Virus record (IMG/VR): IMGVR_UViG_3300030382_001515
Location: 1 to 57,075 of that record
Origin: a virus
Length of the DNA: 57,075 nucleotides
Direction: 5' to 3' (one strand)
Below the pieces are notes generated by a model. The model had not been told where the DNA came from. It saw nothing but the letters and a program-made list of their open reading frames with translations, and searched no databases. A program made the translations under genes and the position numbers. Shown piece by piece: positions 4,039 to 57,075 of this stretch (position 1 is its first letter; the number at the start of each line of letters is the position of its first letter).

Positions 4039-4065
4039 GCTATTATTAAGGTAGCTTATGTAAAA

Positions 4066-4094: not shown

Positions 4095-4132
4095 AGAAGC
4101 GTGAGCGTTTTTTACATTTAATCTTTAAATCG

Positions 4133-5545: not shown

Positions 5546-5603
5546 TTAATCTCTTAATTACGAATACAATAAGGGGAGGCGTAAAGTTTCCCCTTTTTGT
5601 TTA
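5542..5603 (+). terminator. Double hairpin and intrinsic terminator after the capsid gene
   Basis: Two stem-loops follow each other. An 8-bp AT stem, GTAATTAA (5542-5549) with TTAATTAC (5554-5561), encloses the capsid stop codon. Then AAGGGGA (5571-5577) pairs with TCCCCTT (5589-5595), followed by a T run. The second is a classic Rho-independent terminator, placed like the T7 terminator after gene 10. Both hairpins are retained at 49227-49287 although the loops differ. Confidence 0.8.
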
Positions 5604-5607
5604 AATA

Positions 5608-6246
5608 ATGGCAACTACAAAACTACAAGCAGTTAATACACTTCTTTCCATCATTGGGGAAGCACCTGTCAATTCTTTGGTTCCTCCTTTAACTGGAGAT
5701 ACAAGTCTTGCAGACAGTGTACTTGATGAAATAAGTAAAGAGATCCAAGGTGAAGGTTGGTCTTGGAACACAATGTTATACGATCAAATTCCTTTAGATA
5801 CTAATGGGCATAGTTCTCTTCCTAGTAATACTCTTGCTATAAGGTTTAATCCAGTTTCATATCCTTCCCAACGGTTTGTATTAAGGGGTGTTAAACTTTT
5901 TGATCGAGTTAGAAATACTTATGACTTAAGAGGAAGTCTTGGAGTAGCTTTAACAGGTACTACTCAAAGTGATTTAGTTGCTGAAGTTGTTGAGGAACTT
6001 GCTTGGGATGATGTACCTGAGACTGGTAAAAGATATATAATGATCCGATCTGGAAGAATATTCTCTAATAGAGCTATAACTTCAACTAGCATAGAAGCTT
6101 ACACCCAAGAAGATGAGGAGAACGCTCGTCAAATTCTGAAGCGTACAGAAGATATGGCTCAGAATAATAACTTCATTAGTGGTCCTGATGATTTATATGA
6201 TGGACGGGTAATGACTGTCTTTGGTCCTGATATCCTTAACCGCTAA
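5608..6246 (+). CDS. Tail tube (adaptor) protein, T7 gp11-like
   Basis: 212 residues, the usual size of gp11. The start M-A-T-T-K-L-Q-A-V-N-T-L-L-S-I-I-G-E-A-P-V has the typical N-terminal motif of this family (A-V-N-x-x-L-x-x-I-G-E-x-P-V). Later features include a W-S-W-N segment near residue 51 and an E-A-Y-T-Q-E-D-E-E-N-A-R helix near 168. The protein forms the ring between portal and nozzle. It lies after the capsid terminator with no obvious Shine-Dalgarno sequence (TTTAAATA before ATG), and its stop overlaps the start of the gp12-like gene (TAATG). Confidence 0.92.
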   Translation: MATTKLQAVNTLLSIIGEAPVNSLVPPLTGDTSLADSVLDEISKEIQGEGWSWNTMLYDQIPLDTNGHSSLPSNTLAIRFNPVSYPSQRFVLRGVKLFDRVRNTYDLRGSLGVALTGTTQSDLVAEVVEELAWDDVPETGKRYIMIRSGRIFSNRAITSTSIEAYTQEDEENARQILKRTEDMAQNNNFISGPDDLYDGRVMTVFGPDILNR

Positions 6247-9200: not shown

Positions 9201-9386
9201 CCTCTTAACGCAAACATCGTGTTAAGCCAAGCATCTAATTTTGATGAAAGTAAGTTCAGAGCCTATATCCAAAGTAAGAACGACCAAGTTACAGTAGAAG
9301 TAGTAAACGACAGCATTGATCAAGCCAAGTTCGTCGCTTTAGAATGGACTGGTTTGTACTTTGATGTAGCGAGGAAGTACGGCTAA
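6246..9386 (+). CDS. Tail nozzle protein, T7 gp12-like, with two inserted beta modules
   Basis: 1046 residues, longer than T7 gp12 (about 794). The start Q-I-I-G-P-L-N-K-G-V-N-Q-Q-A-D is typical of podovirus tail tube protein B. Two similar Thr/Ser/Gly-rich modules are inserted at about residues 96-170 and 315-398. Each has a G-x-x-V/I-x-G-T-x-I-P core followed by T-F-T-L and an Ala-rich turn. The central region L-G-F-I-S-G-E-N-V-I-L-S-E-A-G and the blocks after residue 640 are the conserved propeller part. It forms the tail nozzle and fibre attachment site. Coupled to both neighbours by one-base overlaps. The homologue 49926-53066 has exactly the same length. Confidence 0.93.
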   Translation: MSKEIFSQIIGPLNKGVNQQADSFVLPGFAKTLENANCDLVEGLKKRLGSVPLKQVDTLTKNAGGNTLVGTIKWDEAWVYVYNRSTDERFILIIADDSRTVTKTVTTVNNSAVVTVSSGGVTDLFVGSEVSGTNIPSGSKIVEIGATTFTLDKNATAAGSSITATIESNYTFTAGVSNVEPISGTLPSVVPVEQTFANITNTNLEYLRGSGRARDRFRATSFQDYVFITNIQKKTAYDSSETLTRFNIGSISNVYQPIKAQVWVKLVDYNTQYSVDIELDDGDKINGHYMTPTLTDSAGNSNIVSSATIAERLVTYTTTITGTTANGNANITSVSTTSGTGDIWKVHGGELITGTGIPSNTFVKEGSVDTTAGTFTLANEAGSNVNATASGAVTLTLKHGLDDVDINNKLTFEVKDSQILIGCASASRYIKSFVASDARGNSLMSGYSSQVTSIVDLPTTSWEGYTVLVAPDGTADKSSYYLKFNAENTTVAGTYGRGTWEESGGWGARGKLDDNTMPHAFVYYKNDDGLTRFTFQPFSGSNYTDGSTTVAIPGWVVRLAGDETEQPGPSFLGFTISDLVFFKNRLGFISGENVILSEAGSYYNFWQQSALKVIDNDPIDLTAVSNDVAVLNYALQQQDELVLFSNENQFRLYSGDNVTFSPETASVGRISSITMEAKVKPQQVGPQVIFPVREGDFTGMHTFITTDRTVGINLGQTAVITETIPKYIPKNIDSLAVSRTDQYLVALSGDDPDALYVYQFFWEATGGSLTNRQNAWSKWTFPNKSVHWCDFVEGTLLTLNKYTENSTVKYYLEGINASRPPQDEKDLFLLDRQLSSSITTDLGVVTFTYSGLTNKTTVNLPYYTVNPSQFAIIKVDKTDANESAKRWIVAASVPAGVNTFVCDSLGDFSGANVSWVFGEKVAFKFTPPQLMPYSKTATDNTFIGNRTGRLQLRYVDVYYNDARYFTIDVTPDFRDKKTYEFDRRDPLNANIVLSQASNFDESKFRAYIQSKNDQVTVEVVNDSIDQAKFVALEWTGLYFDVARKYG

Positions 9387-10279
9387 TGACTACAGGCGCA
9401 TTACCATCTAATTATGGGAAGACTGAAGCAGCGGCTTTTTCTACGGCTGCGTCACATCAAGAACAGATTGGTTCTTTAAACAATGGAAAAGGCCAAGGAT
9501 GGGCTTCTCCAGGTACTCTTTCTCTTATTAACGGAGCCGTAGCTGTAGCTGGGGCTTATTACGGAGGAAAGATAACACAATATGAATCTGAGCGTAAACA
9601 CTATGTAGCTCAAGCTCAGTACTATAGAAAAATTCTTAATCAAGAGAAAGCTAATTACCGTCAATATGAAGTATCTCTAAATAACTGGTACAGAGATGCT
9701 GACTGGGTAGAACAGCGTAGAGCTTATGAAGAGAAAAGAAAGGAGCTTCAAGCTGCCTATAAAGGAGAAGCAACGATAGCTGCTACTCAGAATTTTGAAA
9801 GAAACATAGCTAATGTTGAAGGCCGCTTCTATGAAGAAGAAGCGATGGATATTATTGAGATGGATAATATCAGGACTCAGATGGTTGGTGAAGCTGTTAA
9901 AAAGGTAGCTTCAGGTCAAGTTGGTCGTACTGTCCAAGCAATGAGTCAACAGTATGAACAGCAGTATTTAGCTAATCTAAGTAATCGTCAAATTACTAGG
10001 AGATTTAGAATACAAGATAAAGAGAATCAAAAGGTAGCTATGGATGTTGCTAGAGAAAACGCTGTGAATCAAGTAAGGTTCTATGAACCACAACCTATAG
10101 CTGATCCTGTTAAACCTTTAGCACCTTTACCTGTACAAGGTGTACCACCAACAGCTCCTTCTCCTGTAAGTGGTATAGCTATTGATGTAGGTTCTAAAGT
10201 TCTTGGAGCTGCTATGGACTATATGGATATGCAGCCTAAAGATTCAGATAGACCCAATCGAGGTACCGTAGAAACCTAA
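9386..10279 (+). CDS. Internal virion protein, gp14-like by position
   Basis: 297 residues. A small hydrophobic stretch near residues 48-62 (I-N-G-A-V-A-V-A-G-A-Y-Y) is followed by a long charged helical/coiled region with N-W-Y-R-D-x-D-W-V-E-Q-R-R at about 103-115 and R-F-R-I-Q-D-K-E-N-Q-K-V near 206. A Pro-rich tail follows. The order after gp12 and before two very large proteins matches T7 gp14-gp15-gp16, the ejected core that forms the outer-membrane part of the DNA channel in T7. Assignment is mainly by synteny and architecture. The second-copy homologue (53066-54022) has an unrelated-looking N-terminal third. Confidence 0.8.
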   Translation: MTTGALPSNYGKTEAAAFSTAASHQEQIGSLNNGKGQGWASPGTLSLINGAVAVAGAYYGGKITQYESERKHYVAQAQYYRKILNQEKANYRQYEVSLNNWYRDADWVEQRRAYEEKRKELQAAYKGEATIAATQNFERNIANVEGRFYEEEAMDIIEMDNIRTQMVGEAVKKVASGQVGRTVQAMSQQYEQQYLANLSNRQITRRFRIQDKENQKVAMDVARENAVNQVRFYEPQPIADPVKPLAPLPVQGVPPTAPSPVSGIAIDVGSKVLGAAMDYMDMQPKDSDRPNRGTVET

Positions 10280-41803: not shown

Positions 41804-43197
41804 AACTTAAAGAAGCTTATACCTCACTTGCCATGACTGGCAGGGTAAAGAGCTGGTTGAAAGATCCAGCTAGACGCTACCCCGTGTCGTGTTGTGTCAT
41901 GGTTGTTGACGACACGATGGATGAGTCTGAAGACTCTATTGAACAGTCCTTTATCTTTGCTTCTAAAGCACTTCGTTATGGCGCAGGAGTCTCCTTACAC
42001 CTCTCAAACCTCAGACCAAAAGGAACTGAGAACGAGCACGGAATGGTTGCTAGCGGTCCTTGTGGATTCATGGAGATCTACTCCAAGTTCAACGAAATCC
42101 TCAGACGTGGGGGACAGTACAGAAATGGGGCGATCGTGGCTCATTGCGACTGGGACCATAGCGACATTATTGAGTTCATCAATTATGATCGTGCTCGCAT
42201 ACCGTGGCTTAAGCGCTGCGTCAATGTTGATCCAGAGGTAATCAACAAGCCTTCTATATTGAATGCGATTATGGAGGGAGCCCGTAAAGGTGACCTTTGG
42301 CTTGTTAAGAAGCAGTACGACTCAAATGGTGAGAGAATTTACCATAACGTATGCCAGGAGATCTTAATTAAATCTAGAGATACCTGCCTCTTAAGTCATA
42401 TAAATTTAGCTGGTACTAATAGTGTTAGTGATATACCTGAAGCCTTTGTAAAAGGTATGGAGTTTCTTTGTGACCTTTACAAAAGAACTGGAGTTAATAG
42501 ATCTGGTATCTACCGTAAGAAAGATAATCAGGTAGGTCTAGGTGTACTTGGTCTGTCTAATCTTCTAGCTATTGAGAATGTATCTTATAAAGATTTTGTC
42601 TCAGCTATGAGGAGAACTAATTTAGGTGTTCGTATAGAAGAAGTGACTATGGCTGACTCTATAGCTCTAGCTATTCATCACGGTATGCAAGCGGCGGCTA
42701 AGGTGGCTGAAGAAAATGGTATGACTAGAGCCTTTACCGTAGCTCCAACTGCTACTTGTTCTTATAACTATGTAGACAGAGAAGGTTACACAACAACACC
42801 TGAAATTTCTCCACCAATCTCACGTGAGGTAGATCGTGATAGTACTACTCTTGGTGTTAAATCATATAAGTATCATCCAAAGTGTGAGACTGCTGAAGAA
42901 GTAGGTTGGGATACTTTCTTTGAGTTGAATTGTGAATGGCAAGTCATGATGGATAAAACCAAGAAGGCACACGCTATCTCCATGAATTGGTGGTCTGACT
43001 TAATAAATTTTGACAGACAGTTTATGTCTAGATGGTTAAATTCTCCGTTGAAAAGCCTATACTATTCTTTACAGGTCATGCCGGATACGCAAGATAAAAC
43101 AGATGTGTATGCCGCTTTAGGGGATACCGATGTTGACGAGTATCTCAGTGAAATTTTGACCGATGATAACCCAATAACTTGTGATTGTGCAGAATGA
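41800..43197 (+). CDS. nrdA: Ribonucleotide reductase alpha subunit, compact class I
   Basis: 465 residues, much shorter than E. coli NrdA (about 760); no ATP-cone is seen at the N-terminus. Active-site residues are present: Cys pair Y-P-V-S-C-C at 27-32 (for Cys225), N-V-C-Q-E-I at 183-188 (Asn437, Cys439, Glu441), C196 in D-T-C-L-L-S (Cys462), the Tyr dyad L-Y-Y at 421-422 (Tyr730/731), and C-terminal cysteines D-C/C near 461-463. The Tyr dyad and a beta gene directly after it mark class I, although cyanopodovirus RNRs were long labelled class II. It makes dNDPs/dNTPs. Ends with an ATGA overlap with nrdB. Confidence 0.94.
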   Translation: MKLKEAYTSLAMTGRVKSWLKDPARRYPVSCCVMVVDDTMDESEDSIEQSFIFASKALRYGAGVSLHLSNLRPKGTENEHGMVASGPCGFMEIYSKFNEILRRGGQYRNGAIVAHCDWDHSDIIEFINYDRARIPWLKRCVNVDPEVINKPSILNAIMEGARKGDLWLVKKQYDSNGERIYHNVCQEILIKSRDTCLLSHINLAGTNSVSDIPEAFVKGMEFLCDLYKRTGVNRSGIYRKKDNQVGLGVLGLSNLLAIENVSYKDFVSAMRRTNLGVRIEEVTMADSIALAIHHGMQAAAKVAEENGMTRAFTVAPTATCSYNYVDREGYTTTPEISPPISREVDRDSTTLGVKSYKYHPKCETAEEVGWDTFFELNCEWQVMMDKTKKAHAISMNWWSDLINFDRQFMSRWLNSPLKSLYYSLQVMPDTQDKTDVYAALGDTDVDEYLSEILTDDNPITCDCAE

Positions 43198-43913
43198 TGA
43201 GACAGCATCCATACAAACAGCTTCTGGAAAGGAAGCGTACCTGGACTCCCGTGCGTCCAACAGCAGGAAAGCTGAAGGAAGGCTCTGAAGAGACTATTAA
43301 ACGTGCTCTATCTATAAGACACCTTGAACTACCCGTAGGAGGGTTCATCAAGGCGGCTCTTGAAGATATCCCAGTTTTATCTAAGGAGCTTCTAGAGGAC
43401 AACGTAAGAGATGAGGATAGGCATGATATAGCCCTCAATTATATTGCTGAAGCTCATGGTGTAGATGAGAAAGCTGAGGCTGAAGCTTTTAGACTTCAAG
43501 CAGCTTGGAAGGCTCACCCTGATCCCACAGTTTTAAAAGCTCTTGTAATTGAGAAAGCTATCTTTTTTGTGTTGCTGCCTTTCTTCAGATTCAACGGAGA
43601 CACTGGGATGAGGGTTACATCAGCGGATATCAGCCGTGATGAGACCATCCACGTAAGTGGTCATAGTCTTGTGTGTAGAGAAAAGGGTTGGACTCCTAGC
43701 CCATCTTTAGATAAACTAAGGAAAGCAACAATTAATTGGGTTCTTCAACCTTTAGGTGATTCTGAGGATCGCTATCTAAACAAAAAGTTTTGGTTAGATC
43801 AAAGTGATAATCTCATGTATCGTGGTAAGGCTGAAGGCTTAGCTGATACTAAGAGAGCTAGAGTTCCTGCTTTCTTTGAAACTAGCAATTCCGATTTACC
43901 GAGTTACGCATAA
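43194..43913 (+). CDS. nrdB: Ribonucleotide reductase class I beta subunit lacking the radical tyrosine
   Basis: 239 residues from ATG 43194 in an ATGA overlap; a TTG upstream at 43185 is unlikely. Metal ligands: E74-D-R-H77, I-E120-K-A-I-F-F and E150-T-I-H153, i.e. the E-xx-H ... E ... E-xx-H set of diiron or dimetal R2 proteins. Four residues after H77, where E. coli has Tyr122, there is Leu (L81), so the usual tyrosyl radical cannot form. It is short for an R2 (about 350-380 usually). Partner of nrdA. The sequence 43659-43756, within this gene, is identical to window positions 1-98 and is where the two phage copies meet. Confidence 0.88.
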   Translation: MMRQHPYKQLLERKRTWTPVRPTAGKLKEGSEETIKRALSIRHLELPVGGFIKAALEDIPVLSKELLEDNVRDEDRHDIALNYIAEAHGVDEKAEAEAFRLQAAWKAHPDPTVLKALVIEKAIFFVLLPFFRFNGDTGMRVTSADISRDETIHVSGHSLVCREKGWTPSPSLDKLRKATINWVLQPLGDSEDRYLNKKFWLDQSDNLMYRGKAEGLADTKRARVPAFFETSNSDLPSYA

Positions 43914-44608
43914 TGGGTTGGTGGAGCAGAGCTTGGAAAGCAGTTACTGCCCCAGTTAGGGCAGTTGTAAACGTTGCTAAAGATGTAACTAAAAAGGTTG
44001 TTAATGTAACTAAAGATGTAGTTAAAGTTACAACCCAAGCAGCTAAAGATGTAGTTAAAACTACTACAAAGGTAGTAGGTAACGTAGCTAGAGGTGTTGA
44101 CGATCTTCAAAAAAACGTCCGAAAAAATGTTAACAACGTTGTAGAGGACTTATCAGGAGCTAGAGACCGTAGAAAAGCTGCAGAAGATTTAGAAAGGGCT
44201 GCTGCTGAGCAGAGCGAAGCTCAAGAGGCTTACGATAAACAAGCTGCTGAGATTAAAAGGCAGACAGAAGATCAGAAAGCTCAAATGGCTGCTGCTACAG
44301 CAAAGCAAACAACAGCTACTCAAGAAGCTCAAAGAATAGAAGCTGAAACTATAGAGAAAACTAGAATTGCTGAACTTGAATCTAAACGTTTAAGTGCTTC
44401 TACTAGAGTTCAAACTCAAATAGACGCAGCTACAGCAGCTAGACAAGCTCAAATCGCAGAGCAACAGGCTATTGCAAGTCTTCCAGAGGAAGATGATGAT
44501 ACTGGAGCAGGACCAACTGTTACAAGAACACCTATAGCAACACCCGTTCCTGGGGGTTATGGTGGTACTGAACCTGGTGCTATTAACCCAACTGGCTTGA
44601 ATATATGA
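43913..44608 (+). CDS. Coiled-coil virion-region protein, second copy
   Basis: 231 residues, homologue of 255-947. M-G-W-W-S-R-A-W-K-A-V-T-A-P-V-R-A-V and the tail T-R-T-P-I-A-T-P-V-P-G-G-Y-G-G, ending T-G-L-N-I, match closely. The middle coiled coil differs in many residues and holds extra Thr/Val repeats (K-V-T-T-Q-A-A-K-D-V-V-K-T-T). The same one-base overlap with nrdB and four-base overlap with the next gene are kept. Belongs to the diverged second phage after the join. Confidence 0.85.
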   Translation: MGWWSRAWKAVTAPVRAVVNVAKDVTKKVVNVTKDVVKVTTQAAKDVVKTTTKVVGNVARGVDDLQKNVRKNVNNVVEDLSGARDRRKAAEDLERAAAEQSEAQEAYDKQAAEIKRQTEDQKAQMAAATAKQTTATQEAQRIEAETIEKTRIAELESKRLSASTRVQTQIDAATAARQAQIAEQQAIASLPEEDDDTGAGPTVTRTPIATPVPGGYGGTEPGAINPTGLNI

Positions 44609-44778
44609 TTCCTGTAATTGATGAGCAATTAATTGAATATTTAGAAGAGGTCTATCCAGATAAGGCTCCAGATATTAGTATAGAAGAGAAGCAAATATGG
44701 TTTAATGCTGGACAGGTGGCGGTTGTACGTCATTTGAAGGATCAGTATAGACTACAAGAAGAAACTAAGTACAACTAG
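44605..44778 (+). CDS. Small conserved acidic protein, 57 aa, second copy
   Basis: Same length as 944-1117. M-I-P-V-I-D-E-Q-L-I-E-Y-L-E-E-V-Y-P-D-K-A-P-D-I-S continuing to Q-E-E-T-K-Y-N. Only a few conservative changes; overlap with the upstream TGA kept. Its conservation is the main support for both copies. Confidence 0.85.
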   Translation: MIPVIDEQLIEYLEEVYPDKAPDISIEEKQIWFNAGQVAVVRHLKDQYRLQEETKYN

Positions 44779-44780
44779 AT

Positions 44781-45287
44781 ATGGCCGCTACTGCTACCGC
44801 TATTCTAATTGGTTCTGTCTTAGCTGGTGGAGCCACAGTTTACGCAGCTCAAAAGGCTGCCTCAAATGCTAGAAGAGCTGCTAAACAAGCTAGAGAAGAT
44901 GCACGTTTAATGCGTGAGCAATCTGATAAAGAGATTGCACAAATGCAGTCGAGTGCAAAACAGAATCAATTACAATTTGAAACTAATATAGCTGAGACTC
45001 GAAAACGAACACAATTATCTATTGACCAAGCTAGTGCGGCACAACAAACAGCACTTAAATCGATAGCTCAACAACGATCCACATCTCAGAGGGCTATACA
45101 ACAATCAAATTTACAAAGTAGAATCCAACAACAGCGGTCAGCTCATAACGTTGGTAGGAAATCTAGGAAGAGAGTTGGCACACCTAGAGCTTTAAGAACT
45201 AAAGTGGAGACAAACTCTGCTTTAGCTATGGGAGGTGGTACTGGGGGTGGTACAACTAAATCAGGTACTGGCGGTCTAAATGTCTAA
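44781..45287 (+). CDS. Hydrophobic/coiled-coil/Gly-tail protein, second copy
   Basis: 168 residues, homologue of 1121-1630. The N-terminal A-T-A-I-L-I-G-S-V-L-A-G-G-A-T segment, basic V-G-R-K-S-R-K-R-V-G-T-P-R and end T-G-G-L-N-V are kept. The 8-nt overlap with the portal ATG is the same. Coiled-coil residues vary. Virion or assembly role by position only. Confidence 0.85.
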   Translation: MAATATAILIGSVLAGGATVYAAQKAASNARRAAKQAREDARLMREQSDKEIAQMQSSAKQNQLQFETNIAETRKRTQLSIDQASAAQQTALKSIAQQRSTSQRAIQQSNLQSRIQQQRSAHNVGRKSRKRVGTPRALRTKVETNSALAMGGGTGGGTTKSGTGGLNV

Positions 45288-46884
45288 AAACACAGCTCAG
45301 GCTCTTTATTCTTTTCTGGAGCCAGAGAAATCCATTTATCTCGATAGAGGTATTGAGTGTAGTAAATACACGCTACCTACTCTTATTACTGAGAATGATA
45401 AGAGTAGTGGGAGGAATCTCTATACAAAAATTAACACTACTTATCAAGGGCTGGGCGCTAGAGGTGTTAATCACTTAGCGAGCAAACTTTTGATTGCTCT
45501 ACTACCACCAAACCAAGCATTTTTTAGGTTATCTGTAGATGATATGAAGCTCCAGAAGGAGTTAGATAACTATAAAGAAATCCAATCACAATTTGATCAA
45601 CAACTTTCTCTAATGGAGAGGGCTGTTATGAGAGATATAGAGGAGTCAGGAGATAGGACTGCTTTATTTGAAGCTCTTAAACATCTCCTTGTTAGTGGAA
45701 ATGCTTTATTATATATAGCTGAAAACGGTACTAGGGTTTATCCTCTTAAGTCTTTCTGTTTAAAGAGAGATCCAGAAGGAAATATTTTAGAAGTAGTTAT
45801 TAGAGAAGAAGTTAGTACTGATGTTTTACCTGAAGGTACAGCTCCTAAGAATGGTGATGGTAAGTTTACAGATAAAACTACTTTCCTATTTACTCACGTT
45901 CAATGGGATTATAAGAAAGCTAAATGTAACTGGTATCAAGAAGTTTATAGCAAGAAGATAGGAAAACCAGGCTCTTCTCCTATGGATAAGTGTCCGTTCA
46001 TTCCTTTACGACTATTCCGAGTAGCTCACGAAGCTTATGGACGCAGCTTTTGTGAAGACCTATTAGGGGATCTTAAGTCTCTTGAGTATTTATCTAAAGC
46101 AATTGTTGAAGGATCTGCAGCCGCAGCTAAAATAATCTTCTTATGTAACCCAAATGGAACTACACGACCCGATGCGTTGGCTAGAGCTAGCAATGGTTCT
46201 ATTGTGGCTGGCAATCCTAATGATGTAGCACCACTGCAAATGAATAAGCAGGCTGACCTCACGGTTGCCCTGAATACTATTGCTCGTATAGAACAACGAC
46301 TTAGTTTTGCTTTCTTATTGAATAGTGCTATCCAAGCTGGTACTCAAGGTAGAGATAGGGTTACAGCAGAAGAGATCAGAATGATTGCACAAGAGCTTGA
46401 GACTGGTCTTGGAGGGGTTTACTCCATACTTTCTGTAGAACTACAGCTACCTATGGTTCATAGAAAGATGGCACTGATGGAACGTCAGGGCCGCTTACCG
46501 AAATTACCGAAGGATATAGTTAAGCCACGTATTACGACTGGACTAGATGCTTTAGGTAGAGGTAATGACAAAGTTAAACTAATTGAATTTATCCAAACCC
46601 TAGCTCAAACCTTAGGTCCTGAAGTTATGAGTAAGTTTGTTAATAACCAAGAACTTATTACAAGACTTGCTGCTTCTGACGGATTAGATACTTACAAGCT
46701 TATAAAATCTGAAGAAGATTTAGTGGCAGAAGAACAGCAACAGGCTATGATGATGCAACAACAAGCTGCAGGTCAGGATCCACAAAATGATCCTGCTAAA
46801 CAAGCAGCCCTTATTAAAGCAGAAAATGACTCAGTCAGGACGGGACAGGAAGTTGCAGCAGCCCAAGGTCAAGCTGGAGCCTAA
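45280..46884 (+). CDS. Portal protein, T7 gp8-like, second copy
   Basis: 534 residues, four longer than the first copy at its Gln/Ala-rich end (Q-G-Q-A-G-A). Conserved motifs Y-S-F-L-E, N-T-T-Y-Q-G-L-G-A-R-G-V-N and L-L-P-P-N-Q-A-F-F-R-L are identical. Most base differences are synonymous. In 46145-46347 the DNA is nearly identical to the first copy, then at 46348-46368 seven codons in a row change synonymously. Function as for the first portal. Confidence 0.95.
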   Translation: MSKNTAQALYSFLEPEKSIYLDRGIECSKYTLPTLITENDKSSGRNLYTKINTTYQGLGARGVNHLASKLLIALLPPNQAFFRLSVDDMKLQKELDNYKEIQSQFDQQLSLMERAVMRDIEESGDRTALFEALKHLLVSGNALLYIAENGTRVYPLKSFCLKRDPEGNILEVVIREEVSTDVLPEGTAPKNGDGKFTDKTTFLFTHVQWDYKKAKCNWYQEVYSKKIGKPGSSPMDKCPFIPLRLFRVAHEAYGRSFCEDLLGDLKSLEYLSKAIVEGSAAAAKIIFLCNPNGTTRPDALARASNGSIVAGNPNDVAPLQMNKQADLTVALNTIARIEQRLSFAFLLNSAIQAGTQGRDRVTAEEIRMIAQELETGLGGVYSILSVELQLPMVHRKMALMERQGRLPKLPKDIVKPRITTGLDALGRGNDKVKLIEFIQTLAQTLGPEVMSKFVNNQELITRLAASDGLDTYKLIKSEEDLVAEEQQQAMMMQQQAAGQDPQNDPAKQAALIKAENDSVRTGQEVAAAQGQAGA

Positions 46885-47059
46885 GGTTGTTATTTCAGAG
46901 GAGGTAGATACTGCACCTCCAAAAGTAGAGAATGAGATTGAACGACGTATTAGAGAATTAAAAGAACAAAAGCCTAATATCTATGAGGAGTATAAAAATG
47001 CTATTAAGAGTCAGAAACGTGCCACAATAGGCCCTGACTTATCTCTACGTGTCGGTTAA
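46826..47059 (+). CDS. Small protein between portal and scaffold, second copy
   Basis: 77 residues from ATG 46826 (alternative ATG 46787 in frame). M-T-Q-S-G-R-D-R-K-L-Q-Q-P-K then a helix (E-R-R-I-R-E-L-K-E-Q) and the conserved end K-R-A-T-I-G-P-D-L-S-L-R-V-G. Slightly longer than the first copy by a P-K-V-K-L-E insert. Confidence 0.75.
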   Translation: MTQSGRDRKLQQPKVKLEPKVVISEEVDTAPPKVENEIERRIRELKEQKPNIYEEYKNAIKSQKRATIGPDLSLRVG

Positions 47060-47062
47060 ATT

Positions 47063-47716
47063 ATGGAGTTAAATTCTGGAGATGGCGCAGCTACGCAGGA
47101 AACTGGGCCGTATAACGAGGCGGATCTCGAAATTATCAAAGAGGGTGATCAAGCACAATCTCAAGAACAGCAACCACAAGAAGACCTTATCGGTGGTAAG
47201 TTCAAAACTGCAGACGACCTCCTTGAGGCTTACCAAGCGCTTGAAAAGAAACTTGGAGACCGTGCAGGCTATCAAAGGACTGAAGAGGAATCTAAGGAGG
47301 GAACAGAAGAGACTGAAGCGAAAGGAGCTGATCTAGATGATGGTCCTATTACTCAGGAAGAAGAGACTGCTATTTTAGAAAGTGTGGGAGGTAAAGAGTC
47401 TTTCACCAAGATACAAGAGTGGGCTAAAGGCGCTCTTAATGAAGATGAGCTAACCGTCTACAACAGGGAGGTTGCTAGTGGTGATTACTTCAGAGCGAGG
47501 AATGCGCTTCAATCTATGGCGTTTGCTTATACCGAAAGTAATGGCTCTGAACCAAACTTAATAGGAGGAAAACTAACAGGTCGTAGTACTGATGTATTTC
47601 GCTCTAATCAAGAAGTTGTAGAAGCTATGAGTGATCCTAGGTATCTTAAAGATTCTGCTTATACACAGGATATAGAAGAAAAGCTAGGACGTAGTGACGT
47701 ATTAACACCTAGATAA
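47063..47716 (+). CDS. Scaffolding protein, second copy
   Basis: 217 residues. Conserved D-L-I-G-G-K-F-K-T-A-D-D-L-L-E-A-Y block; the acidic N-terminus and the linker after residue 65 vary and include small insertions. Same place between portal and capsid as in the first copy. Confidence 0.9.
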   Translation: MELNSGDGAATQETGPYNEADLEIIKEGDQAQSQEQQPQEDLIGGKFKTADDLLEAYQALEKKLGDRAGYQRTEEESKEGTEETEAKGADLDDGPITQEEETAILESVGGKESFTKIQEWAKGALNEDELTVYNREVASGDYFRARNALQSMAFAYTESNGSEPNLIGGKLTGRSTDVFRSNQEVVEAMSDPRYLKDSAYTQDIEEKLGRSDVLTPR

Positions 47717-47745
47717 GCTAATATTAAAGAAGCTTAAGTATTTAT

Positions 47746-47774
47746 ATTGTTGCCTCTGAGGAGATAACAGCAGT
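47746..47774 (+). promoter_or_regulatory. Conserved 29-nt element upstream of capsid, second copy
   Basis: Identical to 4066-4094, with unrelated flanks. Its spacing to the capsid ATG (47812) is shorter (37 versus 38 bases). The identity across diverged noncoding DNA implies a functional site. Confidence 0.55.
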
Positions 47775-47811
47775 GGTGTACTAAGCATTAAGCATTTTAA
47801 CTATTAAATCG

Positions 47812-49230
47812 ATGCCAGATTTTTCGAGCATCTCCAGGTTAGGTGGCATTAATGGCGCTCAGTATAACGCCAACTCTGCTGCTGGCAACTACGAAAAGGA
47901 GAATGCAAATTTCATGAAAATCTTCTCTGGAGAAGTCCTAACGGTCTTCAATAGGGAAACTATTTTCAAAGACTTAACCCAAAAGCGTACCATCTCATCG
48001 GGAAAATCCGCTGAGTTTCCAATCACGGGACGTTTTTCTAGCCGCTACCATCGTCCAGGCGATTGGATCACAGGCCAAGGCAACAAAGGGATGACAGGAT
48101 CAAAGATTATTACAATCGACGATCTACTTATCGCAGATGCCTCGATCTATGATTTAGATGAAGCCAAACTTCACTGGGACGTTAGGTCTATATACTCAAA
48201 AGAATTGGGTAGGGCACTTTCAAGAGCCTATGACCAGCGTCTAGTTCGCACACTTCAAACAGCTTCCGAGTCTGATGGTCGTGTTAAGGACTGGGATTCT
48301 AAGAGATTCCAAATTGCAGGTGGTACTGTAGCTTCTGTTGCAACTGCCACAGGTGTTGTAACTATAAGCGCTAACTTCGCAACTGCTGAGCTTTCATACT
48401 GGGCTGTTGGTGAAAGTGTTTATGGTGAAGACTCAGGTGCTTACGGTGTTATCACTGCAGCTCCTACAAACGGTGCTGCTGTATTCACAATCAGTCCTGT
48501 TGGTGCTATTGGTACTGGTACTGATTCAGTCTTCAAGGTTGGAGAGCGTCTATTCGTTCTTAATTCACTTCCAGGTGGAACAGCCATAACAACAGGAACA
48601 CTTAGCGCTACGAGAGCTACTCGTGGTGATGAGATTGTTGAGCAGTTCTATCAGGCTTGCCAAGCACTTGACGAGAAAGACGCTCCTCGTGAGGGTCGTG
48701 TCGCAGTGGTTGGACCTGGCGCTTACTATGACTTGATCTCTTCTGCAAGAGCAATCAACACTGACTGGAACTCAGGCGGTGGTGAGAACGGTTCCTTCAA
48801 AGGAAACAAAGTTCTTAGTGTTGCTGGTTTTGATATCAGGGTATCTAATCACCTTGGTGACAACGCTTACAACTCAGCTCGTCAGGGCTACATCGGTCAA
48901 GCTAACCAAGCTGCTACAACTCGTGGTGAACGTCCTAACTACATCAATGGTAACGACGGTTCCGACGGTACGGCTGCTGCAGGTACTAACGACTACTGGC
49001 AGGATGAGCAAGGTAATACTTCAAGTATTGCTAACTTGTTCGCTCTTTGCTTCACTAAAGAAGCAGTGGGTACAGTAGCTCTTAAGGATCTGAATATGCA
49101 GATGACTGGTTCTGAGTACAAAGCGATGACTCAGAGCACCATGATGGTTGCTTCTTATGCTGTTGGTCACGGTATACTCCGTCCCGACTGCTGTGTAAGC
49201 ATCAAGCATGATGGCACAAACCGCTGGTAA
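47812..49230 (+). CDS. Major capsid protein, second copy
   Basis: 472 residues. Nearly the same N- and C-terminal parts as the first copy; the inserted beta-rich part (about residues 170-267) carries most replacements and a two-residue difference (A-S-V-A-T-A-T-G-V-V-T-I). This supports reading that part as a surface-exposed inserted domain. Confidence 0.95.
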   Translation: MPDFSSISRLGGINGAQYNANSAAGNYEKENANFMKIFSGEVLTVFNRETIFKDLTQKRTISSGKSAEFPITGRFSSRYHRPGDWITGQGNKGMTGSKIITIDDLLIADASIYDLDEAKLHWDVRSIYSKELGRALSRAYDQRLVRTLQTASESDGRVKDWDSKRFQIAGGTVASVATATGVVTISANFATAELSYWAVGESVYGEDSGAYGVITAAPTNGAAVFTISPVGAIGTGTDSVFKVGERLFVLNSLPGGTAITTGTLSATRATRGDEIVEQFYQACQALDEKDAPREGRVAVVGPGAYYDLISSARAINTDWNSGGGENGSFKGNKVLSVAGFDIRVSNHLGDNAYNSARQGYIGQANQAATTRGERPNYINGNDGSDGTAAAGTNDYWQDEQGNTSSIANLFALCFTKEAVGTVALKDLNMQMTGSEYKAMTQSTMMVASYAVGHGILRPDCCVSIKHDGTNRW

Positions 49231-49287
49231 TTAATTCCTTAATTACGAATACAATAAGGGGAGGCGTAAGTTTCCCCTTTTTGTTTA
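49227..49287 (+). terminator. Double hairpin and terminator after capsid, second copy
   Basis: GTAATTAA (49227-49234) pairs with TTAATTAC (49239-49246) around TTCC. AAGGGGA (49256-49262) pairs with TCCCCTT (49273-49279), followed by TTTTG. Stems are identical to 5542-5603 while the loops differ. Confidence 0.8.
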
Positions 49288-49290
49288 AAT

Positions 49291-49926
49291 ATGGCAACTA
49301 CAAAACTACAAGCAGTAAATACTCTTCTATCCATTATTGGAGAAGCACCAGTTAACTCATTGGTTCCTCCTTTAACAGGTGATACAAGTCTTGCAGACAG
49401 TGTTATTGATGAGATAAGTAAAGAGATACAAGGAGAAGGGTGGTCTTGGAATACTATGATGTATGATTCAATACCCCTAGATACGAATGGACATAGCTCT
49501 CTTCCTAGTAATACCCTTGCTGTAAGATTTAACCCAGTTTCATACCCAACCCAACGTTTTGTATTAAGAGGTATAAAGTTATTTGATCGTGTCAAGAACT
49601 CCTATGATTTAAGAGGAAGTCTTGGTGTGGCTTTAACTGGTAGTACTACAGATTTAGTTGCTGAACTTATAGAAGAATTAGTTTGGGATGAGGTACCAGA
49701 AACAGGTAAACGTTATATCATGATACGAGCTGGAAGAATCTTTGCTAACAGAGCTATAACATCAACCAGCATAGAAGCCTATACTCAAGAAGATGAAGAG
49801 AATGCTCGTCAGATATTAAAACGTACAGAGGATATGGCACAGAACTGTAACTTCATTAGTGGTCCTGATGATTTATATGATGGTCGTGTAAGAACTACCT
49901 TTGGTCCTGATATTCTCAACCGCTAA
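49291..49926 (+). CDS. Tail tube protein, gp11-like, second copy
   Basis: 211 residues, one shorter than the first copy (a T-T-Q-S versus S-T-T difference near residue 117). N-terminal A-V-N-T-L-L-S-I-I-G-E-A-P-V kept. Stop overlaps the gp12-like start (TAATG). Confidence 0.92.
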   Translation: MATTKLQAVNTLLSIIGEAPVNSLVPPLTGDTSLADSVIDEISKEIQGEGWSWNTMMYDSIPLDTNGHSSLPSNTLAVRFNPVSYPTQRFVLRGIKLFDRVKNSYDLRGSLGVALTGSTTDLVAELIEELVWDEVPETGKRYIMIRAGRIFANRAITSTSIEAYTQEDEENARQILKRTEDMAQNCNFISGPDDLYDGRVRTTFGPDILNR

Positions 49927-52900
49927 TGTCAAAAGAACTTTTTAGTCAGATAATTGGTCCACTGAATAAAGGAGTGAACCAACAGGCAGATAGCTTTGTC
50001 TTACCAGGTTTTGCTAAGACACTTGAAAATGGTAACTGTGATCTTGTAGAAGGTCTTAAGAAGAGGCTTGGATCAGTTCCCGTAAAAAGGATTGATACTC
50101 TTACTAAGAATGCAGGAGGTAATACTTTAGTAGGAACAATCAAGTGGGATGAAGCTTGGGTATACGTTTACAACAGGAGTAGTGATGAAAGGTTCATACT
50201 TATTGTCGCTGATGACAGCAGGACTATTACTAAAACTGTTAATACTGTCAATAACTCTGCGGTACTTACTGTAACTTCAGGAGGGATGACTGATCTATTT
50301 GTAGGATCAATAGTCACAGGAACAGGTATAGGAGCTGGAGCAAAAATCGTAGAGATAGGAGCTAGTACTATTACTGTTGATAAGAACTCAACTGCAACTG
50401 CCTCAGGTATTACTGCCACCATTGAATCTAACTATACATTTACTGCAGGGGTATCCAATGTAGAGCCTATAAGTGGCACACTCCCCAGTGTGGTTCCTGT
50501 TGAACAGACATTTGCAAATATAACTAATACAAATCTTGAATACCTACGTGGGTCAGGTAGAGCTAGGGATAGGTTTAGAGCAACCTCATTCCAAGATTAT
50601 GTATTTATAACAAATACACAAAAGAAAACTGCTTATGACAGCTCAGAAACTTTAACGAGATATAATATCGGATCTATAAGTAGTGCTTACCAACCTATAA
50701 AGGCTCAAGTTTGGGTTAAGCTCGTTGACTACAATACAGAGTATTCAGTTGATATTGAGCTAGACGACGGAGATAAGATAAACGGTCATTATATGACACC
50801 AACTCTTACTGACACTAGTGGTAACGCAAACGTTGTTAGTTCTGCCACTATTGCAGAAAGACTAGTTACGTATACAAACACTATTACAGGAACTACAACC
50901 AGTGGCAACCCTACGATTACAAGCGTTAGTACTACTGCAGCTACAGGAGATATTTGGAAAGTTCACGGTGGAGAACTCATTACTGGTACAGGTATACCAT
51001 CCAATACTTTTGTTAAAGATGGAAGCGTTGACACTTCAGCGGGTACTTTCACTCTTGTTAATGAAGCTGGGTCTAATGTAAACGCAACAGCTAGTGGAGC
51101 TGTAACTCTTACCCTTAAGCACGGCTTAGATGATTGTGATATTAACAATAAACTTACATTTGAAGTAAAGGATTCTCAGATATTAATAGGATGTGCCAGC
51201 GCTTCTAGATACATCAAAAGCTTTGTAGCCTCTGACGCTAGAGGTAATAGTTTAATGTCTGGTTTTTCTAATCAGGTTACCTCTATAGTTGATCTTCCTA
51301 CCACATCTTGGGAAGGCTACACAGTACTTGTAGCTCCAGATGGTACAGCAGATAAGAGTTCTTACTATTTAAAATTCAACGCTGAAAATACTACAGTTGC
51401 TGGTACTTATGGTAGAGGTACTTGGGAAGAATCTAGCGGTTGGGGTGCTAGAGGAAAGCTAGATGACAATACAATGCCTCACGCTTTTGTTTATTACAGA
51501 AATGCTGATGGTCTTGTAAGGTTCACATTTCAACCCTTTAGTGGTAGTAATTATACAGACGGTACTATAACTATTGCGTTACCTGGCTGGGTTGAAAGAT
51601 TAGCAGGTGATGAGAGTGAACAGGAGGGTCCTTCTTTTGTTGGGTTTACTATTAATGATGTTGTGTTCTTTAAGAACCGTTTAGGGTTCATTAGCGGAGA
51701 AAACGTAATACTCAGTGAAGCTGGGTCTTACTACAACTTCTGGCAGCAATCAGCTCTACAGGTTATAGACAACGATCCTATAGATTTAACAGCTGTTAGT
51801 AACGACGTCGCTGTACTTAACTATGCTTTACAGCAGCAGGATGAATTAGTACTCTTCTCTAATGAGAACCAGTTCAGACTCTACTCAGGTGACAACGTAA
51901 CGTTTAGTCCTGAGACTGCCTCTGTAGGTAGGATTAGTTCCATCACTATGGAAGCAAAGGTTAAACCACAGCAGGTAGGACCTCAAGTAATTTTCCCAGT
52001 TAGAGAGGGTGACTTCACTGGGATGCATACTTTCATTACTACAGACAGAACAGTAGGAATAAACCTAGGTCAAACTGCTGTTATTACAGAGACAATACCT
52101 AAGTACATCCCTAAGAACATAGATTCTTTAGCTGTAAGTAGAACTGATCAATATTTAGTAGCCCTTAGTGGTGATGATCCAGATGCTTTATATATATATC
52201 AATTCTTCTGGGAAGCTACTGGTGGCTCACTAACTAACAGACAGAACGCTTGGTCTAAGTGGACATTCCCTAACAAAGACATCTATTGGTGTGACTTTGT
52301 TGAGGGTACTTTATTTACACTGGTTAAGTATACGGAGAATAGTGTTGTTAAGTATTACCTGGAAGGTATAAACGCTTCTAGACCTCCTCAAGATGAGAAG
52401 GATCTGTTTTTACTAGATAGACAATTATCTAGTTCTATTACTACAGATTTAGGAGCCCCAACATTTACCTATAGCGGCCTTACTAATAAAACAACAGTAA
52501 GTCTCCCTTACTACACCGTTAACGATAGTCAGTTTGTCATTCTCAAAAAGGATACAACAGATGCAACAGAGTCTGCGAAGCGTTGGATCGTGGCTGCTTC
52601 TATTCCGGCTGGGGTTAACTCTTTTGTTTGCGATAGCTTGGGAGATTTTAGTGGTGCGAACGTTTCTTGGGTCTTTGGGGAGAAAGTTACATTCAAGTTT
52701 ACTCCGCCTCAGCTCATGCCCTATAGCAAAACTGCGACAGACAACACTTTTATTGGCAATCGTACTGGTCGCCTTCAGCTACGATATGTGGATGTTTACT
52801 ACAATGATGCACGATACTTCACCATCGACGTGACTCCTGATTTCAGAGATAAGAAAACTTACGAGTTCGATAGAAGAGACCCTCTTAATGCGAACATCGT

Positions 52901-53066
52901 GTTAAGCCAAGCATCTGACTTTGATGAAAGTAAGTTCAGAGCTTATATCCAAAGTAAGAACGACCAAGTTAGAGTAGAAGTAGTAAACGACAGCATTGAT
53001 CAAGCTAAGTTCGTCGCTTTAGAATGGACTGGCTTGTACTTTGACGTAGCGAGGAAGTACGGTTAA
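49926..53066 (+). CDS. Tail nozzle protein, gp12-like, second copy
   Basis: 1046 residues, the same length as the first copy. Both inserted Thr/Gly-rich modules are present and are the most changed parts; the central and C-terminal blocks are almost unchanged. The DNA at 52620-52800 is nearly identical to 8940-9120 and uses GC-richer codons than the surroundings. Confidence 0.93.
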   Translation: MSKELFSQIIGPLNKGVNQQADSFVLPGFAKTLENGNCDLVEGLKKRLGSVPVKRIDTLTKNAGGNTLVGTIKWDEAWVYVYNRSSDERFILIVADDSRTITKTVNTVNNSAVLTVTSGGMTDLFVGSIVTGTGIGAGAKIVEIGASTITVDKNSTATASGITATIESNYTFTAGVSNVEPISGTLPSVVPVEQTFANITNTNLEYLRGSGRARDRFRATSFQDYVFITNTQKKTAYDSSETLTRYNIGSISSAYQPIKAQVWVKLVDYNTEYSVDIELDDGDKINGHYMTPTLTDTSGNANVVSSATIAERLVTYTNTITGTTTSGNPTITSVSTTAATGDIWKVHGGELITGTGIPSNTFVKDGSVDTSAGTFTLVNEAGSNVNATASGAVTLTLKHGLDDCDINNKLTFEVKDSQILIGCASASRYIKSFVASDARGNSLMSGFSNQVTSIVDLPTTSWEGYTVLVAPDGTADKSSYYLKFNAENTTVAGTYGRGTWEESSGWGARGKLDDNTMPHAFVYYRNADGLVRFTFQPFSGSNYTDGTITIALPGWVERLAGDESEQEGPSFVGFTINDVVFFKNRLGFISGENVILSEAGSYYNFWQQSALQVIDNDPIDLTAVSNDVAVLNYALQQQDELVLFSNENQFRLYSGDNVTFSPETASVGRISSITMEAKVKPQQVGPQVIFPVREGDFTGMHTFITTDRTVGINLGQTAVITETIPKYIPKNIDSLAVSRTDQYLVALSGDDPDALYIYQFFWEATGGSLTNRQNAWSKWTFPNKDIYWCDFVEGTLFTLVKYTENSVVKYYLEGINASRPPQDEKDLFLLDRQLSSSITTDLGAPTFTYSGLTNKTTVSLPYYTVNDSQFVILKKDTTDATESAKRWIVAASIPAGVNSFVCDSLGDFSGANVSWVFGEKVTFKFTPPQLMPYSKTATDNTFIGNRTGRLQLRYVDVYYNDARYFTIDVTPDFRDKKTYEFDRRDPLNANIVLSQASDFDESKFRAYIQSKNDQVRVEVVNDSIDQAKFVALEWTGLYFDVARKYG

Positions 53067-54022
53067 TGGCAAAAGGACCAACCTATACACCATCTTTGGG
53101 TTCAGCTTATTCAGGAGCGAACTACGACTGGAGTGGTACGAGTAGTATTAGTTTTTCACAAGGAGCGAAACTTAATACTGGAAATCTGATAAAGAGCTCT
53201 CCTAACATATCGAGCAAGAACCAGTTCATGTCTCCTGGCATGATGGCAGGTCTTGATGCTGGGTTTGCGGTTGCTGGTATGTATTTCCAACACCAAACTA
53301 ATAAGTACGAAACTCAACGTCAAAACGCTGTAGCAGAACAACAGTACTACAGAGCAAAGCTTAATAAGGAGAAAGAGAACTACCGTAATTTTGCAGTAGA
53401 TCTACGGAACTGGTATAGAGATACAGATTGGGTAGAACAGCGTAGACAGTATGAACAGAAACGTAAGGAGCTTCAAGCTGGGTATAAGGGGGAAGTAACT
53501 ATTGCAGCTACTAAAAACTTTGAAAGGATGATGGCTAATATTGAAGGTAGGTTTTATGAAGAAGAAGCTAGAGATATCGTTCAGTTAGACAGCATTAGAA
53601 CTGAGTTTATATCTCAAGCAGTTAAGAAGGTAGCTTCTGGACAGGCTGGTAGAACAGTCAAAGCTTTAGGTAATCAATTTGAGCAACAGTGGTTAGCTAA
53701 CCTCAGTAACCGCAATATTACTCGTAGGTTTAGGATACAAGATAAGGAGAATCAAAAGGTAGCTGCAGACACAGCTAGAGAGAACTCAGTTAACGCTGTT
53801 CAGTTCTATACACCAACACCTCTTGCAGACACTGTGAAACCTATGATGCCTCTACCTGTTGAAGGTGTTGCACCTACTCCAGCTACATCAACTGGAGGTT
53901 TAGGAATTAAGATTGCTCAACAGGGTCTAAAATCCTATCAAAAATACATTGATGCACAGCCTTCTTACCCGAAGGGTGATGCTCCAAAACGTACTCCAGT
54001 TTCACTAGGCGAATCTAAATGA
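53066..54022 (+). CDS. Internal virion protein, gp14-like, second copy with different N-terminus
   Basis: 318 residues against 297 in the first copy. From N-W-Y-R-D-T-D-W-V-E-Q-R-R onward the proteins align well (R-F-R-I-Q-D-K-E-N-Q-K-V kept). The first ~70 residues (M-A-K-G-P-T-Y-T-P-S-L-G-S) bear no clear resemblance beyond a shared hydrophobic segment. The Pro-rich tail also differs. Start overlaps gp12 stop (TAATG); end overlaps the gp15-like ATG (ATGA). Confidence 0.8.
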   Translation: MAKGPTYTPSLGSAYSGANYDWSGTSSISFSQGAKLNTGNLIKSSPNISSKNQFMSPGMMAGLDAGFAVAGMYFQHQTNKYETQRQNAVAEQQYYRAKLNKEKENYRNFAVDLRNWYRDTDWVEQRRQYEQKRKELQAGYKGEVTIAATKNFERMMANIEGRFYEEEARDIVQLDSIRTEFISQAVKKVASGQAGRTVKALGNQFEQQWLANLSNRNITRRFRIQDKENQKVAADTARENSVNAVQFYTPTPLADTVKPMMPLPVEGVAPTPATSTGGLGIKIAQQGLKSYQKYIDAQPSYPKGDAPKRTPVSLGESK

Positions 54023-57000
54023 CAAGTAGCGGTGGTAGAAACCAGTTTCAAATAACTCCTAAGAGGTCTCAATTTGAGGACTTAGCACCTCAAGCTGAAA
54101 AGCCTGAATTACCTGGAGCACCAGCTCAACCAAATAAAGAGCGATATCAAACTGGTGGGCAGTTATATGATAAGTCTTCCTTTCAACCAGATAACAGATT
54201 ACAATCTGCTGTTGATTCAATAGAAGCGTTTATAGATCCTCAAACTGGTGGTTGGACTAAATCTCAAGAGATGCTTCTTCAACATTGGAGAGGAGAATCT
54301 CAAAAGATAGCAGATTCAGTAAGACAGGCAGATTCTTGGTTGGATTCTGTTGATGCTGCTACTAAAAATGCAGAGAAAACTGCTGATGTAGTTAGGCTTT
54401 TAGAAAAGAAAGGTGAAATTGAATTAGCTAGAGAAACAGCTTTAAACGATAATACAAACGCTTTTTACTACTGGGATGCGGTTGCTTATGACGCAGGTAG
54501 AGATGCTGCAATTACTTTAAGAGATATAGGTGTTAAAGATTTACAGCATATAGCTTCTTTGGATGAAACTAAGAGAGGTTTATACATACAGAAACTTGCA
54601 TCAGGAGCACTTAAAGGAACAGAACATATACCTTCAGCAGCTAGAGCAGCGAGAATAGATCCACTAATGGCCTCTGTTACTGCTGAATTAAAAGCAGAAG
54701 CTAATAGTAGAGCTAGAGAATTTAAAGATGATATAGATAGACGTACCTCTACTCAATTGCTTAGAGGAGCAGTTAGTGAAACTTCTAGATTAATCTTCGC
54801 TGATAAAGATGGTCCAGTAGCAGTATCCAGATTAAGGTCTGGGCTTACGAACCAAAGAGGGTTCTGGATGATTACTAAAGGTAAAAGCGGTAAGTTTGCT
54901 ACTGAACAGTTATCTTTATCAATTCAAAATGGAGATCTATTTGTAGACGTTGCAGGAGCTACAGATTCACAAGGGAACCCTATAGGCGATTCTTGGAATG
55001 ATTGGGGGCAAGCTGGAGTAGGTATAGATGCTTCTTATTTTCTTAAGTCTTTAGATGGGATGATGGTTCCTGATGGTAACGGCGGAATGATAAACCAGTT
55101 AGAGGCTAAAGATTCTAAGGGTATAACTATAAGAGAGAGGATACAGGAGTATGGGAAAAAGCAGTCAGCATTATATACAGCTCATCTTAAAGCTAAAGAA
55201 ACATCTTTATCTGCAATAACGAAAAACTACAAACGTGGCATTGTAAATGAGTCTAATGACTGGGATGAAAAGAATCCAGGTGCTAGTTATCAACAGATAG
55301 AAACTCAAAGAAATAAGGTAAGAGCTTCTATTGAAAAAGATATGGAGAGTAACGGTACTCTTAAAGACCTATTTGGTGATGGTGATATAGAGAAGTTGTT
55401 AAATAGGGCTTATCCTCTTGATCTTTTAAAGACACCTGTTGAGCTAAGAAACGACGTATTAGACGCAGTAGAGTTGTCTATTTATGAAGACGGAGACTTG
55501 GAGATCCCTCCAGACATCATGAGGATGATGACAAATAATGACGGTAAACTTTACGATGTTTATAAAGATGTTCGTAAGACGTATAGAGATGCAAATAAAG
55601 AAGCCTTTAAAACTAACAGAACTTTAATAAAGAATCTTGTTAGGGAAAATGTAACCAGTTTAAAGGGTGAATTACCTGTAATACTAAGAGATCATCCAGG
55701 TTTAACAGATTTATATAACGGTTCTAATGAGGGTAAAGCTCACGCAAAAGATTTAGTAGATGCTGCGAAAGCTAAAATATTCCCAATATTAGAACCTAAG
55801 TTTAACGAACTTTTAAGGAAGAAATATAGAGCAGCGTTAGTTGCTAAGAAAGACATCAATAGTGAAGCAGTTCAAAAAGAGATATATAACTCAGCTCTTA
55901 ACGACCTTAAGAGTGATCCACTTCTAGGTGATATTGACTCATGGATCGTAAAAGTACCAGGAACTAACCAGTGGAAGCTTAGAAATATAGCTAAACCAGA
56001 GGGTGTAGTACTCAGCTACCCTAACGGTAGGTTTGTACCAGGGCAGATAAACACACCAACAGGTAATGGTAATAAGGCTAATTTTACATATAGCGATAAC
56101 GGTTTAAGCGCATCACTGTATTACCAAGGTGAGTTCGTAGGACCAAATGCTAGAAGTGCCTTTGATGAATTTACAAGAGACACTATTCTCATACCTGAAG
56201 ACCACTTAAAAGCTTGGTCACACGCAAGGACTCTTCTTTCTCAAGGGAAGCCCATACCTGACGGTCTCATCACCAACGATATGAGAGAGACTCTAACTAA
56301 TTTAAGTACTAGGGCTACTAACGGTGCAGTACAACCTTGGGAACTCTTAAAAAGATCGCATGAAGTTTTCTATGGTAATACAAAAATGAACGCATTAGGT
56401 CTTAGTGATGAAGACAATAAAGGTTTTTATCAACAGCTAGGCTCCTTAACAGGCTCAGTTAGTGCTTCTAATAATGCTGATGATTCTATGGATGCTTCAA
56501 GTATTACAGTTAAGCCTATGACAAGGCTTATATATGGGGTAAATAACTACGGTGTATCAGTATCTCTAACTAAAGGTAACGATCAACAGTTTTCAAATGA
56601 CGTACCTACACCTGTAAATGGTGAGATTGTTGAAGTTGGTAATAATAAGATTGATGGTAATTTCATAGTCATCAGAACGAATAGTAAATCTAATTACAAC
56701 GAAAAGGGTGACTTAGTTAAAATCTCTAATTTAGCTGAAACCAACGTTGAGGTTGGAGATGTGGTAGAGCCAGGAGAGCAGATAGGCTTACAAGGAGATG
56801 ATACAGACCTTAACAGTGGAGAAAGGTCTACCACTGGTCAAATAGTTTCTCCAGGGCATCTCACTGTTCAGATATTCCAAGGTGATACAGGAGAAGTAGG
56901 TACTGATACTCAATACAGTCAAGGTTATAACACAGCATTTGTTAACGGTATGTTCATACCTCTTTATACAGATGTGCTAGCAGCGGCTAATGAAGTACCT

Positions 57001-57075
57001 GCAACACCTATAAATACAGAAAAAGGGATTGGTTACTCACCAGATGATATTGATGTAGGTGGTGCAAAAACGCTT
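54019..57075 (+). CDS. Internal virion protein, gp15-like, second copy (3' end outside window)
   Basis: Open from ATG 54019 to the last base, 1019 codons without a stop. Start M-T-S-S-G-G-R-N-Q-F-Q-I-T-P-K-R-S-Q-F parallels the first copy, with shared A-Q-P-N-K-E and S-S-F-Q-P-D. It is more diverged than the other genes. The M23-like part at about 843-955 (T-P-V-N-G-E-I-V-E-V-G, I-G-L-Q-G-D, S-P-G-H-L-T-V-Q-I) again lacks the full metal set, but one His of the HxH motif is kept (H-L-T). Confidence 0.85.
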   Translation, partial: MTSSGGRNQFQITPKRSQFEDLAPQAEKPELPGAPAQPNKERYQTGGQLYDKSSFQPDNRLQSAVDSIEAFIDPQTGGWTKSQEMLLQHWRGESQKIADSVRQADSWLDSVDAATKNAEKTADVVRLLEKKGEIELARETALNDNTNAFYYWDAVAYDAGRDAAITLRDIGVKDLQHIASLDETKRGLYIQKLASGALKGTEHIPSAARAARIDPLMASVTAELKAEANSRAREFKDDIDRRTSTQLLRGAVSETSRLIFADKDGPVAVSRLRSGLTNQRGFWMITKGKSGKFATEQLSLSIQNGDLFVDVAGATDSQGNPIGDSWNDWGQAGVGIDASYFLKSLDGMMVPDGNGGMINQLEAKDSKGITIRERIQEYGKKQSALYTAHLKAKETSLSAITKNYKRGIVNESNDWDEKNPGASYQQIETQRNKVRASIEKDMESNGTLKDLFGDGDIEKLLNRAYPLDLLKTPVELRNDVLDAVELSIYEDGDLEIPPDIMRMMTNNDGKLYDVYKDVRKTYRDANKEAFKTNRTLIKNLVRENVTSLKGELPVILRDHPGLTDLYNGSNEGKAHAKDLVDAAKAKIFPILEPKFNELLRKKYRAALVAKKDINSEAVQKEIYNSALNDLKSDPLLGDIDSWIVKVPGTNQWKLRNIAKPEGVVLSYPNGRFVPGQINTPTGNGNKANFTYSDNGLSASLYYQGEFVGPNARSAFDEFTRDTILIPEDHLKAWSHARTLLSQGKPIPDGLITNDMRETLTNLSTRATNGAVQPWELLKRSHEVFYGNTKMNALGLSDEDNKGFYQQLGSLTGSVSASNNADDSMDASSITVKPMTRLIYGVNNYGVSVSLTKGNDQQFSNDVPTPVNGEIVEVGNNKIDGNFIVIRTNSKSNYNEKGDLVKISNLAETNVEVGDVVEPGEQIGLQGDDTDLNSGERSTTGQIVSPGHLTVQIFQGDTGEVGTDTQYSQGYNTAFVNGMFIPLYTDVLAAANEVPATPINTEKGIGYSPDDIDVGGAKTL

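Follow-up and report, generated by a model that had tools for sequence, protein, structure and literature searches.

A 57-kb viral contig that probably joins two podophage strains through a shared stretch of nrdB

The 57,075-nt stretch of DNA analyzed here, referred to as the window, is the IMG/VR viral contig IMGVR_UViG_3300030382_001515. As genome structure, this record is very probably an assembly artefact, a contig that would be chimeric between two strains of a phage population. This assessment was derived from sequence comparisons, in which an exact repeat was detected, each strain version was found in separate contigs, these contigs broke in or beside a shared stretch of nrdB, contig ends overlapped by k-sized lengths, and trees of the shared tract and of its flanks conflicted. 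Chimeric assembly through a shared stretch was the account favored in an earlier sequence-only reading of the window and was supported by the separate strain contigs, their common break region and the k-sized end overlaps. That natural recombination had itself produced the shared stretch had gone unnoticed in that reading.

Two versions of one module in an over-long contig

The relevant features of the window are as follows.

1..98, plus strand: first copy of the 98-nt exact repeat, at the contig start in the 3′ part of nrdB (strain 1), with a mismatch at base 99
43659..43756, plus strand: second copy of the 98-nt exact repeat, within an intact nrdB
1..9396, plus strand: strain 1 nrdB 3′ end and portal, scaffold, capsid and tail-tube genes, found alone in contigs L008 and L167
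43659..53077, plus strand: strain 2 version of those genes, found alone in contig L005 (43433-53077)
53078..57075, plus strand: strain 2 tail genes, to the contig end, with only ~50 to 75% identity to strain 1
43185..43913, plus strand: nrdB, ribonucleotide reductase class Ia beta subunit (phrog_6799, E = 9.9e-117), adjoining nrdA and containing the putative crossover
43297..43777, plus strand: nrdB tract, near-exact in otherwise diverged lineages (match to contig L003)
40468..43296, plus strand: upstream segment with exonuclease, MazG-like and nrdA genes, of the same clade as both strains and not assignable to either

A period of 43658 bases and the identity of positions 1-98 with 43659-43756, both noted previously, were borne out, with the first mismatch at base 99 (43757). 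No exact repeat in the window exceeded the 98-nt one in length; the remaining direct repeats of at least 50 nt all fell on the same alignment diagonal (allowing indels), with a maximum of 88 nt, and strains 1 and 2 had no second exact stretch of at least 98 nt in common in the part where both are known. The exact stretch opens at the contig end and closes at a strain difference. A chimera was favored because the sole exact inter-strain match of this length starts at the first base of the contig and ends at a strain SNP. The earlier statement that identity stops after 98 bases was correct for the exact match but not for near-identity, as only 4 mismatches (99, 105, 194 and 204) were present in the first 222 nt of the two versions, past which identity dropped to ~65 to 69%.

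By blastn, the two versions were 83.6% identical over 9482 columns (1-9396 against 43659-53076). A 13.3-kb collinear relationship with mostly synonymous changes had been described, and this description was accurate for the first ~9.4 kb (to ~53.07 kb) but not beyond, where identity was 73% for 0.57 kb and then 50 to 60% in the tail genes. Even within the module, a predominance of synonymous changes was found for the portal, capsid and tail-tube genes (dN/dS of 0.06 to 0.10 between versions) but not for the scaffold gene, the gene at 255-947 (after nrdB) or the gene at 9386-10279, for which dN/dS was 0.18 to 0.46 and dN was 0.22 to 0.38. At 53078-53190, the start of the gene at 53066, a different sequence was present in L005, which matched strain 2 almost perfectly on both sides; another contig, L173, likewise did not align at these positions. 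On these alignments, this segment is putatively a short exchangeable cassette at the 5′ end of a virion gene. Positions 10282-13590 of strain 1 encode a tail-region protein of 1102 amino acids for which neither a relative in the viral contigs (pattern search) nor a PHROG match was detected.

The nearest annotated relative of the window was Prochlorococcus phage P-RSP2 (HQ332139), a member of the Autographiviridae. The two were collinear, in inverse orientation, with blocks of 66 to 79% nucleotide identity across the P-RSP2 record. Gene order and nucleotide similarity over the core place the window phage as a probable P-RSP2-like podophage. The unit of the window (43658 bases, 43.7 kb) is close in length to the P-RSP2 record (42257 bases, 42.3 kb) while the window is longer than one unit by 13 kb, which also favored a chimera. 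In the P-RSP2 record, positions 4-516 and the last 511 bases form a direct terminal repeat (511 to 513 nt, 99.6% identity), and the genome ends of this phage, with the neighborhood of the repeat, mapped to ~34.3 to 35.3 kb of the window. The contig therefore passes through the likely physical genome ends, which is what a circular assembly graph would give; a terminal repeat of the window phage would not be visible in such a contig.

Two observations were made on gene content. Positions 33321-35441 of the P-RSP2 record lack annotated genes despite containing sequence homologous to nrdA and nrdB, and the nrdB similarity there is divided between overlapping frames, 33761-33321 and 34042-33638, a pattern suggestive of a frameshift or sequencing error in that record. 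In the window, no ORF large enough for a T7-type RNA polymerase was present from terminase to helicase (29193-36347); an RNA polymerase profile search of the window gave no match, but its controls were negative as well, which makes the search uninformative.

Contigs from other datasets and k-sized end overlaps

Six contigs contained the repeated region in a pattern scan. L005 (3300025096) corresponded to strain 2 at all but 4 of 9645 nt (43433-53077); L008 (3300006751) was strain 1 over 19-8325 (99.95%, 4 differences), and L167 (3300006754) was strain 1 over 112-4349 (99.5%). Both versions had been assembled separately in other datasets, at 99.5 to 99.96% identity, and the three contigs ended within or close to one and the same portion of nrdB (43433, 19 and 112). 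A genuine 57-kb phage genome with a duplicated head-tail module, which is what the sequence as deposited would represent, was considered extremely unlikely, as each version occurred alone in these contigs (>99.5% identity), the first copy starts inside nrdB at the first base of the contig, and P-RSP2 is just 42 kb.

A tandem prophage of two strains, the alternative raised in the sequence-only reading, gained no support and was given next to no probability. The head-to-tail arrangement is the one feature that fits it. The record begins and ends within phage genes, with no host-like flank seen, and no match to the tyrosine integrase family (PF00589) was detected in the record, with 14/14 control genomes positive. 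A bacterial genome with a close relative of the portal was not found, the one match being 49% identical. Prophage and duplicated-genome readings were, therefore, rejected on the absence of an integrase, the single occurrence of each version and the size of P-RSP2.

Exact overlaps of 127 nt with other lineages were detected at four distinct contig ends (L003, L004, L005 and L006), comprising six end-partner matches. The overlap at the far end of L003 was with L006. Those in nrdB were at the ends of L004, L005 and L006, and the end of L004 matched L003, L006 and L007 alike. Similarly, the end of L008 had an exact 101 nt in common with L003, L006 and L007. Fixed-length end overlaps of this type are a graph-node signature and provide a positive control for the k-mer argument; the 98-nt overlap of the window is probably of the same nature. 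A k value near 99 had been proposed, and the 98-nt repeat does fit k = 99. However, other exact matches also open at the first base of the window, extending over 113 nt in L004 and over 119 nt in L003, L006 and L007; hence, k = 99 is plausible but is not the sole candidate.

These overlaps also bear on whether a mixed concatemer of two strains from a co-infected cell had been sequenced, which was judged very unlikely. T7-like phages replicate via concatemers and P-RSP2 has long terminal repeats, both of which would suit such a molecule, but its joints would be expected at the terminal repeats, at ~34 to 35 kb, and not in nrdB. Furthermore, a rare intracellular molecule would not assemble as a consensus, and exact k-sized contig overlaps would not be predicted.

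The shared nrdB tract and the position of the strain switch

Contig L003 (3300025141) matched the window over 43297-43777 (~481 nt) with 99.0% identity to the window path and 99.4% identity to the strain 1 allele, while outside this tract its identity was ~73% upstream and ~76% downstream. In L006 and L007, from two further datasets, the tract was present as far as the contig ends reach and was exited at the same point as in L003; L004 carries the 3′ part and exits 6 nt earlier than the other three. Numbers of quartet sites grouping the window with L010 as against L003 were 62:6 upstream, 1:20 in the tract and 22:0 downstream. In the tree of the nrdA 3′ end, the window grouped with L009, L010 and L171, while in the tree of the tract it grouped with L003 (support, 0.999). 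With conflicting tract and flank phylogenies and sharp changes of identity at both edges, the tract is, as judged from these comparisons, a product of natural homologous recombination between phage lineages, a known process. An early idea that the tract was foreign to the clade of the window was weakened by the tract tree, which put the window and L003 beside the window's own clade. The support for this placement was only 0.64, too low for a donor of the tract to be chosen.

A wider reading, held as a rather doubtful speculation, is that recombination in P-RSP2-like podophages is at present concentrated in a hot spot in mid-nrdB, with one allele having recently spread, as a tract of ~460 to 480 nt, through at least three otherwise diverged lineages in marine samples. 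A nearby endonuclease VII/HNH gene (39791-40336, 31145-31360) might perhaps aid such a hot spot. Separately, a stretch of ~170 bases of the window (40297-40468), which covers the end of the endonuclease VII-like gene and the bases following it, did not align with most relatives, for example, L010, L011, L012 and L015.

As the tract is a real recombination tract, the strain switch is possible anywhere in it. A passage between strains at 43659 had been proposed; the change of strain is real, but the switch may lie anywhere within ~43297-43756, and base 43659 is merely where the contig's own start happens to fall. The segment upstream of 43297 showed ~90 to 93% identity to several clade members, whichever strain they resembled downstream, and its owner therefore cannot be assigned. 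Assignment through relatives gave divided results, as L010 favored strain 2 while L009, L168, L169 and L171 did not. No match to the upstream/tract junction or to the last bases of the contig was found in exact pattern scans of the viral contigs compared.

These uncertainties affect an alternative in which the crossing in nrdB is real, with a phage genome in which the strain 2 head-tail module follows the upstream part and with the strain change located elsewhere in the 43.7-kb circle. Such a genome would be a recombinant in the nrdB tract or strain 2 itself. This alternative was regarded as possible, if somewhat unlikely, and is a variant of the chimera account, as the 57-kb whole is still composite. 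Recombinants at exactly this tract do exist, as exemplified by L003 (481 nt at 99%) and the conflicting trees. The identities of L010 fit a genome consisting of the upstream segment and strain 2, being 91 to 93% to the upstream segment and, for the first 3 kb downstream, 89 to 94% to strain 2 versus 74 to 89% to strain 1. L005 contains the 226 bases preceding the join and then strain 2; as it spans the join, the join sequence is real strain 2 sequence from 43433 on. L005 stops short of strain-unique upstream sequence, yet it is compatible with, and so would allow, a strain 2 upstream segment. The linkage is weakened, however, by L009, L168, L169 and L171, which have a similar upstream segment but do not resemble strain 2 in the gene that follows. 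Moreover, outside the nrdB stretch, the strains lack an exact match of at least 98 nt where both are known.

Proposed assembly path and comparison with known systems

The chimera account could be explained as follows. A population of P-RSP2-like podophages would contain at least two strains, ~84% identical in the head-tail module and almost identical in the nrdB stretch, which these strains would have in common through natural homologous recombination among phage lineages. The phage genome probably has redundant ends, in which a terminal repeat may play a role, and would thus close into a circle in the assembly graph. From a starting point at a branch node in nrdB, the assembler would have traced strain 1, or a composite containing strain 1, through one full turn of 43658 bases. 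On reaching the shared nrdB stretch again, it would have exited on the strain 2 branch for 13.3 kb, with the crossover located somewhere in 43297-43756.

Artefacts of this kind are well known (PMC11443906; PMC10563150). De Bruijn assemblers cannot pair the contigs upstream and downstream of a region conserved between strains, and at such regions they either fragment, avoiding chimeras, or build a consensus (PMC11443906). The 57-kb record is unfit for use as one genome, as taxonomic assignments and completeness estimates would be distorted by its gene counts, size and duplicated head-tail module. More generally, short-read assemblies can switch strain at sites where phage populations carry natural recombination tracts, and over-long viral contigs can be screened for such switches by looking for internal self-overlaps of one k-mer.

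P-RSP2 resembles the unit of the window in gene order and in genome size (42.3 kb) but differs from the window in being a single unit with a terminal repeat and no duplicated head-tail module. The nrdB tract resembles other phage homologous recombination or gene conversion-like tracts, being a short stretch of 99% identity with flanks of ~73 to 76% and conflicting trees; it differs only in its location in nrdB and in being shared by several lineages, and the mechanism is not new. As in other inter-strain de Bruijn chimeras, an exact repeat, putatively k-sized, leads from the contig end into a diverged, collinear strain, and the shared stretch is also where assemblies of related strains from other datasets are interrupted. 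Unlike the usual chimera of this type, the path in the window would have circled the graph fully before switching, such that both versions of 13 kb are present in one contig.
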